Positions 4,964 through 34,444 of a stretch of 43,632 nt of DNA are shown here, one piece after another. The position numbers and the translations under genes were made by a program. Source of the stretch: a virus. The stretch lies in the IMG/VR virus record IMGVR_UViG_3300047409_000436, positions 1 to 43,632 of that record; one strand, written 5' to 3'. Below the pieces are notes generated by a model. It saw only the letters and a list, made by a program, of their open reading frames with translations. It made no database searches and was not told the origin of the DNA. Positions within the stretch are counted from its first letter, which is position 1. Each line of letters starts with the position of its first letter.

Positions 4964-5572
4964 ATGTTTAATGATGCTCAGCTAGACAGGATTGAGGCTA
5001 AACTCGACCTGGTGAATCAACGGTTGGAAATAATATTGCAACGGGAGGAAAAAATCATGGGCGACTTGCAAGACATGGAGAAGGCTCTAAACACTATTCA
5101 GAAATCAAACGCGGAGATTGCCGCGGACCTGGACAAGATACTGGCCAATCAAAACAAACTGGCTCAGGCACTAGCCGCGGCCGCGGCCGTTGGATCCGCG
5201 GCCAAAGCGGAGCTCGAAAAACTCACAAATCAGGCGGAGCAAATTGCCTCGGATATTGAGGCAACGGAGAATAAGGCGGAGGCCGCAAGCGGAGCTCAGT
5301 CTCCGGACCAGGGACTACCGCCAGGTCAAGGCGGGCATCCGTCAGGCGGCCGTCCGGACCGGCCGGACCAGGGACTACCGCCGTCAGGCGCGCGGCCGGA
5401 TCAAGGGTTGCCGTCCGGCGGACACGTAAGCGGTCAACCGGTTCCAGGAGGCAAGCCGGATCAAGGCTTGCCGTCTCAACCAGGGCATCCTAGCGGACAA
5501 CCGGTTCCAGGAGGCGGAGGCGCGCGGCCGGACCAGGGACTACCGCCGACGGGTCAACCTAAGAAAAGATAA
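4964..5572 (+). CDS. Coiled-coil protein with Pro/Gly-rich PDQGLP repeats
   Basis: About 202 residues. I chose the ATG at 4964 because GGGAAG lies just before it; an ATG at 4952, overlapping the previous stop, is the alternative and adds four residues. The first 110 residues are heptad-like helices (LDRIEAKLDLVNQRLEIIL onward) with an Ala-rich stretch. The last 80 are low-complexity Pro/Gly/Gln with five copies of PDQGLP, ending in a basic KKR. It probably works with the fibre-like protein encoded directly upstream, as a stalk or flexible spike. No enzymatic motif is visible. Confidence 0.6.
   Translation: MFNDAQLDRIEAKLDLVNQRLEIILQREEKIMGDLQDMEKALNTIQKSNAEIAADLDKILANQNKLAQALAAAAAVGSAAKAELEKLTNQAEQIASDIEATENKAEAASGAQSPDQGLPPGQGGHPSGGRPDRPDQGLPPSGARPDQGLPSGGHVSGQPVPGGKPDQGLPSQPGHPSGQPVPGGGGARPDQGLPPTGQPKKR
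5320..5555 (+). repeat. Degenerate tandem repeat encoding PDQGLP units
   Basis: Five imperfect copies of a coding unit around PDQGLP, spaced 11 to 25 codons apart, with recurring HPSGQPVPGG spacers. Copies use two DNA spellings (ccggaccagggactaccg-like and ccggatcaaggcttgccg-like), which suggests old duplication followed by drift, or recombination between two versions. Arrays like this can change in length by slippage or recombination. Confidence 0.6.
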
Positions 5573-32830: not shown

Positions 32831-33048
32831 ATCCGTTGCCATGTTTTGAACGGCGGCGCATTATAGGGGCCGGTCTTTTATTCCAAAAAGAAAAACGCGG
32901 CCGTTGTTGATTTAGCTTTAGCGGGCAAACTCAACTCCGTCGCGCTTATCTTTTGCGTCCGTCCCATGGACGCGGTTGCGCTTGATTGTGCCCGCCTCCG
33001 GTCCGGACGTCAACCTTAATTTGGGTTAGACGGAGGATTAAGTCCGCT
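32831..33048. other. Non-coding stretch upstream of the replication gene
   Basis: About 220 bases. It is less GC-rich than the genome in 32870-32930 and includes a TATAGG-like box at 32863, but no properly spaced -35. CGGAGG at 33031-33036 is the ribosome site for the initiator gene. I see no repeat, tRNA or hairpin with a U-run here. Confidence 0.5.
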
Positions 33049-34020
33049 ATGTCAAACGGGAAACTCCCATGGGGAAAATTCTATTGGAGCGACTGGGACA
33101 GGGACACCGCTTTAGCGTCATGCTCACTTGCCGCGCAGGGCGCATGGATGCGGTTGCTATGCGCCATGCAAGAACAGGACACCTATGAGGTCCGCGGGAC
33201 CGTTGAGAACTTTGCGCGCATTCTTAGATGCTCACCGCCGGAGGCGGCGCAGGCAATTGACGAGTTAGCCGTAACCGGAACGGCGGACCTATATGCGCTC
33301 AAACCTCGAGGCCGGCCGCAACTCATTGCAAACATTAATGACGATTTGTTTGGACTATACAGCGTTACATGCCGGAGAATGAAACGGGAGTGTAACGCTC
33401 GTGAAACAATCCGTAAGCGGGTGCAAAAACACAGACTTGCAAAGGTGAAACGCTCTTGTAACGGGGTTGAAACGGATTTGAAACGCTCTTGTAACACCAT
33501 AGAGTCAGAGTCAGAGTCAGAGTCAGAGTCAGAGTCAGAGAATACAGTAGTAAATGAGTCTAGCAATCTTCTGAAAAAAGAGACTACTGATTCAAACACA
33601 AAACAAGAGAAGTCAACTTCGTTGACGGCGGTTTTTGATTTTTGGAAACTCACGCTCAACCATCCGCGGGCAATCCTGGACGCAAAGCGGCGCCGGCTTG
33701 TCACCGCGCGGCTTGCGGAGGGGTTTACCGTGGATCAACTCAAGGCAGCAATCACCGGTTGCTCACGCTCCGCGTTTCATCAGGGCGGCAATGACGGCGG
33801 CGCCGTCTATGACGATTTGTCACTGATTTGCAGAGACGCGGCGCACGTTGAGCAATTCATTTCCAGGGGAGAAAACGGCAATGGCAAACAACAGGGACTT
33901 ACAAAAAACTCTCAACGCCTCCTCGAATCACTCGAGGGAGTCGCACGTCGCGCGGCACGTGATATTAGCGGGATTGATTCAGGAGTCGCGCTCGCTCCGC
34001 GGCTTACCGTTTTGCGATGA
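33049..34020 (+). CDS. Replication initiator, lambda O-like, with internal origin
   Basis: A 323-residue protein starting MSNGKLPWGKFYWSDWDRDT; I preferred this ATG to the GTG at 32986 because CGGAGG precedes it. Residues 1-100 have the winged-helix layout of phage replication proteins of the DUF1376/O type (SLAAQGAWMRLLCAM, ENFARILRCSPPEAAQAIDEL). Residues 105-200 are a linker made of KRxCNxxET repeats and a Ser/Glu run, and 205-300 form a C-terminal domain that probably contacts the loader. The linker coding DNA holds the iteron array described below. Confidence 0.7.
   Translation: MSNGKLPWGKFYWSDWDRDTALASCSLAAQGAWMRLLCAMQEQDTYEVRGTVENFARILRCSPPEAAQAIDELAVTGTADLYALKPRGRPQLIANINDDLFGLYSVTCRRMKRECNARETIRKRVQKHRLAKVKRSCNGVETDLKRSCNTIESESESESESESENTVVNESSNLLKKETTDSNTKQEKSTSLTAVFDFWKLTLNHPRAILDAKRRRLVTARLAEGFTVDQLKAAITGCSRSAFHQGGNDGGAVYDDLSLICRDAAHVEQFISRGENGNGKQQGLTKNSQRLLESLEGVARRAARDISGIDSGVALAPRLTVLR
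33380..33495 (+). repeat. Iteron array: probable replication origin in the initiator gene
   Basis: Eight TGWAAC half-sites start at 33380, 33391, 33402, 33446, 33457, 33468, 33479 and 33490, all in one 11-bp register (three positions between 33413 and 33435 are empty). The 17-mer tgaaacgctcttgtaac occurs twice, 33 bp apart. An inverted GTTACA stands at 33364. The half-sites fall in all three coding frames, so protein repetition alone does not explain them. The A/T-rich stretch follows. This is the arrangement of lambda ori within gene O. Confidence 0.65.
33501..33540 (+). repeat. (AGAGTC)6 hexanucleotide tract
   Basis: Six perfect AGAGTC units and a partial one, coding alternating Glu and Ser in the linker of the initiator. 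A hexamer can change length without a frameshift. It is the spacer between the iterons and the A/T-rich region, so copy number would alter origin spacing by about half a helical turn per unit. Confidence 0.85.
33541..33610. other. A/T-rich candidate DNA-unwinding element
   Basis: These 70 bases are 31 % GC by count (22 of 70), in a genome near 58 %. They start immediately after the hexamer tract, on the right side of the iterons, where lambda has its unwinding element. The local protein (VVNESSNLLKKETTDSNTKQ) is polar and low in structure, so base composition could be selected for melting. Confidence 0.55.
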
Positions 34021-34444
34021 TACCGAAATGCAGGCGCATTTATCCGCCTGGGGCCGCGCGCTTGCGGACGTTCCTACCGCGGACCTTGAGGACGCTTTTA
34101 CGCAAGCCGCGCGCGCTATAGGGCCGGATAAAAATATTACGCCGGCTCATATCCGCTCAGCCTATGAGGACATTGCACGCCTCCGCGCTTACGCTCAACA
34201 ATCCAGTCCGCGCGCCCATACCTCCTCCGGCAATTCCTGGCGGACGCCGGCGGAGGAGGCCGAATGGGTTGAACAAAACCGCATCCTCACGCCGGCGGAA
34301 AACAAGATTGAGTTTGAGAAATGGGCCGCTTGGCTCGAGGAACAAAAGCGGATCAAGGCTGCAAGCGGACAAAGGCAAACAGAATTCGGCGCGGCCGTCC
34401 AGGGCGCTTTCCGCAAGCTAGGGGAGGGGCTCGGCAATGATTGA
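33881..34444 (+). CDS. Probable helicase-loader-type replication protein
   Basis: A 187-residue protein. I chose the ATG at 33881 (MANNRDLQKT) for its GGGGAG site at the right spacing; the first 140 bases overlap the end of the initiator in another frame. The middle (DVPTADLEDAFTQAARAIGP, then NITPAHIRSAYEDIARL) is helical, and the C-terminal part carries a coiled coil around KWAAWLEEQKRIKA. Following an O-like initiator, it sits in the place of lambda P. No AAA+ motif is present, so the loader call rests on context. Confidence 0.55.
   Translation: MANNRDLQKTLNASSNHSRESHVARHVILAGLIQESRSLRGLPFCDDTEMQAHLSAWGRALADVPTADLEDAFTQAARAIGPDKNITPAHIRSAYEDIARLRAYAQQSSPRAHTSSGNSWRTPAEEAEWVEQNRILTPAENKIEFEKWAAWLEEQKRIKAASGQRQTEFGAAVQGAFRKLGEGLGND

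Follow-up and report, generated by a model that had tools for sequence, protein, structure and literature searches.

Which protein, if any, would read a DNA word that recurs at strict intervals inside a coding sequence, and for what? The question is raised by a phage replication initiator gene in a stretch of viral DNA of 43,632 nucleotides, analyzed over its whole length and hereafter called the window. The C-terminal part of the encoded initiator matches PHROG replication initiation families 16167 and 18020 and the replication initiation protein of Vibrio phage VvAW1, and its C-terminal region matches O-like PHROGs (E = 7e-14; phrog_345, E = 2e-4). The N-terminal domain (N-domain) gave no match to the O-like PHROGs, and the initiator (P0001) had none in a Pfam search; a sequence search against solved structures found no match, and a search of genome contigs with the window initiator as the query found no relative. 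An AlphaFold2 model (mean pLDDT, 81) comprises a winged helix and, after it, a single long helix that contains the motif R-V-Q-K-H-R. Foldseek searches with both predicted models returned weak winged-helix matches only (best E, 0.03) and no informative relative. The product of the next gene matched no family in profile searches and, from its position, is a probable helicase loader. The features of the locus are collected in Table 1.

Table 1. Features of the initiator gene and its surroundings (window positions)
Feature	Position	Strand	Remark
Replication initiator gene, 323 aa	33049..34020	+	TTG-extended ORF starts at 32986
Inverted site copy GTTACA	33364..33369	-	Unchanged in relative L005
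Codons of predicted long helix, residues 109-140	33373..33468	+	AlphaFold2; after winged-helix domain
Site 1, TGAAAC	33380..33385	+	Frame 1, KR
Site 2, TGTAAC	33391..33396	+	Frame 0, CN
Site 3, TGAAAC	33402..33407	+	Frame 2, ET
Proposed specificity motif R-V-Q-K-H-R, residues 124-129	33418..33435	+	In the 44-bp gap between site blocks
Site 4, TGAAAC	33446..33451	+	
Site 5, TGTAAC	33457..33462	+	
Site 6, TGAAAC	33468..33473	+	
Site 7, TGAAAC	33479..33484	+	
Site 8, TGTAAC	33490..33495	+	
Purine-rich hexamer block (AGAGTC)6.7, coding ESESES	33501..33540	+	Tandem repeat
A/T-rich block, candidate unwinding element	33537..33606		Lowest-GC 70-mer in whole window
C-terminal O-like domain, candidate partner of helicase loader	33592..33858	+	Family matches
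Next gene, candidate helicase loader	33881..34444	+	Position only; ORF from 33848 also open

The original prediction, made from the sequence of the window, had described eight TGWAAC words in 11-bp register, and all of its coordinates are correct. The single inverted copy, the 17-mer TGAAACGCTCTTGTAAC repeated at 33446 and 33479 with a spacing of 33 bp, and the spread of the word over three codon frames (KR, CN, and ET) were likewise found as described. The array lies between the DNA-binding and C-terminal domains, and the gap between its two blocks of sites (33402 to 33446) measures four 11-bp periods, so that the register is kept across it. In this gene and its one close relative, the array seems to pause where the codons of the specificity helix have to stand. 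Two points of the description needed amendment. The copies had been called half-sites, and their positions are right, but they are single direct repeats and not halves of a dyad; similarly, the word TGWAAC is present, but the conserved word is GWAAC, as the leading T varies in the nearest relative. TGWAAC occurs 57 times in the whole 43.6-kb window against 29.8 expected, and the array at 33380-33495 is its only periodic cluster, no second such array having been found elsewhere in the window. At positions 5395-5515, the window also carries a tandem duplication of 63 bp within a coding region.

Selection on the array was assessed with two null models that preserve the protein, in which the gene was recoded by codon usage or synonymous codons were permuted within the gene (20,000 trials each). 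Eight TGWAAC copies were never obtained in either of them (0/20,000); the most reached was 6 copies in one model and 7 in the other, with no more than 6 in 11-bp register. The nearest relative, L005, has an N-domain 85% identical over residues 1 to 160 and keeps GWAAC at all eight places: none of the 40 core bases differs from the window, compared with 18 of the 84 spacer bases inside the array and 60/315 in the preceding N-domain outside it, while the leading T differs at three of the eight sites. Changes at two-fold degenerate third positions number 0/10 in the cores versus 13/41 elsewhere. Since synonymous recoding never yields eight copies and the cores are unchanged in L005, the array is DNA under selection. 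A relative that kept the protein repeat but lost the TGWAAC spacing through synonymous changes had been named as refuting the original prediction; L005 gave the opposite result.

The spacer expected to follow the array as six copies of AGAGTC turned out to hold 6.7, and the 70 bases said to be 31% GC (33541-33610) are 31.4% GC. Of 130 relatives, 91 have a purine-rich repeat of 6 bp behind the array (lag-6 match of at least 0.6), and a lag of 5 or 7 was seen at one locus each; the AGAGTC block is therefore a recurring part of the arrangement. The A/T-rich block stands as predicted in the window but is not kept in L005, which has 68 to 82% GC there. It may act as an unwinding element. When L005:3444-3500 is set against window:33501-33560, the 85% identity extends as far as the hexamer block, beyond which no relationship remains between the two.

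The word and its 11-bp period had been thought new. A scan of viral contigs for three TGWAAC words at 11 bp returned at least 120 stretches, and a good share of those listed fall in initiator-like genes, where the N-domain gives way to a low-complexity linker. TGWAAC with an 11-bp spacing is common in phage initiator genes. Intergenic TGWAAC arrays (e.g., in L044, L081, and L066) were set aside because they are not in initiator genes; L044:1429-1750 and L081:3667-3728 are dense TGTAAC arrays with an 11-bp period outside any long ORF. In a second collection, for which initiators were gathered by protein similarity and not by word, the same layout was found with TGCAAC, TGTTAC, TGTGAC, TGTCAC, and TGTAATG; a gene repeats its word every 11 bp, and its copies are mostly of one type. 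Many relatives also have an inverted copy 7 bp ahead of the first direct copy. Arrays with an 11-bp period were further found by direct reading of two lactococcal genes, r1t ORF11 (four TGGAACC-type words) and Tuc2009 Rep (four CAACC words), the latter being annotated as containing the origin. As these belong to known intragenic origins, the claim of a new iteron and period falls.

In the collected genes, the array is immediately preceded by a motif R-X-x-x-x-R, and several hundred relatives were compared for a link between residue X and the repeat. The main set comprised 141 relatives of the Phage_rep_org_N group, dereplicated crudely, of which 128 could be assigned a repeat type by counting GNNAC words of any spacing in the 150 bp after the motif; in the KFYxSDW group, X was located with an improved motif pattern. 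Valine goes with G[TA]AAC (GTAAC or GAAAC) at 79/81 assigned loci, serine with GCAAC at 16/16 (one tie), methionine with GT[TG]AC (GTTAC or GTGAC) at 24/25, and lysine with GTCAC at 5/5, and alanine was found with GCAAC at one locus. Residue X thus predicts the repeat at 125 of the 128 loci, against a maximum of 77 with shuffled labels, the exceptions being L236, L631, and L646. The rule was fixed after the discovery set (61/62) and before the genome set (40/42) and the second viral scan (24/24), the latter dereplicated at 90% but including contigs that overlap with the first set. The lysine entry and the Q/K pair were learned during testing, as only glutamine had been predicted; the narrower statement that TGTCAC goes with glutamine alone was dropped, since both residues occur. 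A scan for TGTKAC recovered almost no coding-strand initiators, and the methionine rule therefore rests on loci selected by protein. Families outside Phage_rep_org_N had V or I with TGWAAC arrays in 10/10 cases, S with TGCAAC arrays at all loci with a well-placed motif (L391, L392, L303, and L340), and mostly Q or K with TGTCAC arrays. In the window, the residue is V125, and GWAAC is the word that the valine rule predicts.

The X column carries 1.20 of the 1.47 bits of information on repeat type, followed by the columns three residues after X (0.51 bits) and three before it (0.30 bits); these three residues form one helix face. On sequence evidence, the link looks like a readable recognition code. 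We consider it likely that numerous phage initiators recognize their origin by way of a single helix, in which X of R-X-x-x-x-R, helped by the +3 and -3 residues, would set the middle bases of GNNAC sites spaced at 11 bp: V, I, or L for GTAAC or GAAAC, S or A for GCAAC, M for GTTAC or GTGAC, and K or Q for GTCAC. One gene encodes both this helix and, beside it, the sites, so that protein and site would evolve in step. The rule appears to be new, as no description of it was found in the open-access literature, subscription journals lying outside the search.

Several loci depart from this pattern in their own ways. In L138-L143, the motif RVLKFR or RVLRFR accompanies TGTAATG, and not TGTAACG, in most copies, which suggests a further contact position. 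The first arginine of the motif is replaced by tryptophan (KWVRAYR) in L634, L635, L640, L641, and L672, where the repeats resemble TGTAA[AT] and not TGTAAC. The N-domain relatives L151-L207 have GGK.GGNP in place of R-X-x-x-x-R, together with GGTTAA(CC)-type repeats and (TCATCT)n; a second code may be at work there. GCAAC arrays follow an NARW/NRWK motif, and not R-S-R, in L366 and L381, where another reader is possible. Finally, L236, L625, and L723 contain an extra segment like an inserted HNH nuclease domain between the motif and the linker.

Such regularities could have arisen in other ways. An 11-bp period inside a gene makes an 11-residue, 33-bp protein repeat (KR-CN-ET), and the recurrence of the 17-mer at 33 bp would fit selection for that repeat as protein, with the DNA words incidental. 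However, the same word is written in all three frames beyond what synonymous recoding achieves, so that a protein repeat alone cannot produce the array; synonymous positions in the cores are frozen, and relatives keep the repeat type set by X though the encoded peptides differ. We therefore regard an origin of the array as a protein feature as extremely improbable. The link between residue and repeat might instead come from common descent within three or four clades and have no meaning for contact, given that both traits are common to related sequences and that the locus sets overlap in part by contig. Yet the other alignment columns are nearly uninformative on repeat type (median, 0.0008 bits), and on a tree built from the N-domain without the motif, each of the two traits changes about 45 times. 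Independent pairs on this tree agree in nearly all pairings, a typical random pairing giving 14/14 for V, 6/6 for S, 8/8 for M, and 3/3 for K, and families without a detectable Phage_rep_org_N domain point in the same direction, which makes ancestry by itself a highly improbable explanation.

The array might also be bound mainly for regulation of its own gene or for another process, such as partition or packaging, with the origin elsewhere. The evidence from the window is sequence, and the replication role is taken from relatives. Against this, the order of array, purine-rich 6-bp block, and A/T-rich DNA is that of SPP1/P335-type origins, the window has no other such array, and a long part of the gene precedes the site. 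On balance, a mainly regulatory or handling role with the origin elsewhere seems very unlikely. GC skew across the window showed no turn at the site, a result that is uninformative because all genes run one way.

An origin inside its own initiator gene is already a known kind of arrangement, represented by lambda O, SPP1 gene 38, Tuc2009, TP901-1, and r1t. The iterons of lambda are longer dyads placed about 20 bp apart. The locus had been called a lambda-style origin, and the likeness holds insofar as repeats and, in the window, A/T-rich DNA lie inside an initiator gene whose C-terminal part, but not its N-domain, matches O-like families; it does not extend to the iterons, as the window has single direct 11-bp repeats and one inverted copy instead of dyad-symmetric elements of about 20 bp. 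SPP1 oriL consists of direct repeats and an A/T-rich unwinding element within gene 38 (PMC6316719), and the window resembles gp38/oriL in this layout. In Tuc2009 and TP901-1, the origin lies within the replisome-organiser gene, with direct repeats as the origin (PMC8965321). Like the window, the lactococcal genes (Tuc2009 ORF16, TP901-1 ORF13, and r1t ORF11) have direct repeats in the initiator gene and low-complexity repeats after them, but the words differ; no 11-bp GNNAC array was found in the gene for TP901-1 REP, a relative by function that is named experimentally. Phage_rep_org_N (PF09681) initiators of Firmicute phages and prophages share TGWAAC, the 11-bp spacing, R-X-x-x-x-R, and the hexamer block with the window, but their array begins after the motif, whereas that of the window lies on both sides of it. 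The window N-domain remains below the cut-off of this family, with no Pfam match; the relative L128 scores 14.8 bits against a cut-off of 23.3, and a profile comparison (hhalign) is weak, with a probability of 13%. Among plasmids and satellites, the part of the literature consulted places the origin of the RepA_N plasmid pSK41 centrally in rep, where it codes for a dispensable linker (PMC5703833), and reports that the DNA-binding domain and origin of PLE RepA satellites swap together (PMC8263062); the same parts describe PLE iterons of about 30 bp that are intergenic, unlike the intragenic 11-bp repeats of the window, and no single-residue rule for either RepA. Judged from the window and L005, it is as if the N-domain plus the array formed one exchangeable module, the C-terminal domain having been swapped just behind the hexamers.

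The stretch holding the array is most likely a phage replication origin that would be bound by the protein encoded there. More specifically, we consider it highly probable that 33364-33606 is a theta-type origin within its own initiator gene, at which GWAAC would be bound, the DNA opened downstream, and the loader recruited, with V125 setting the middle bases; binding, opening, and loading by the initiator are what we infer here. The GWAAC sites, one every 11 bp, would be bound by the winged helix at the N terminus together with the long basic helix that follows. Because this spacing is about one helical turn, protomers would be aligned along the same side of the double helix. DNA downstream of the array would then be opened by it, at the purine-rich hexamers and in the A/T-rich block, and the C-terminal domain would pass the site to the product of the next gene, the probable helicase loader. 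Residue X of R-X-x-x-x-R in the helix would set the middle bases of the sites.

The window is an example of how a stretch that codes for protein can at the same time hold a DNA code spread over three frames. The origins of most sequenced phages are unmapped, and a rule that reads both the position and the word from the initiator would allow their annotation in bulk. It would be a compact protein-DNA specificity switch, testable by single substitutions, and would tell in advance between which phages, prophages, and satellites origins are interchangeable. If the code is true, origins would be findable from sequence alone and assignable to mutually exclusive groups.
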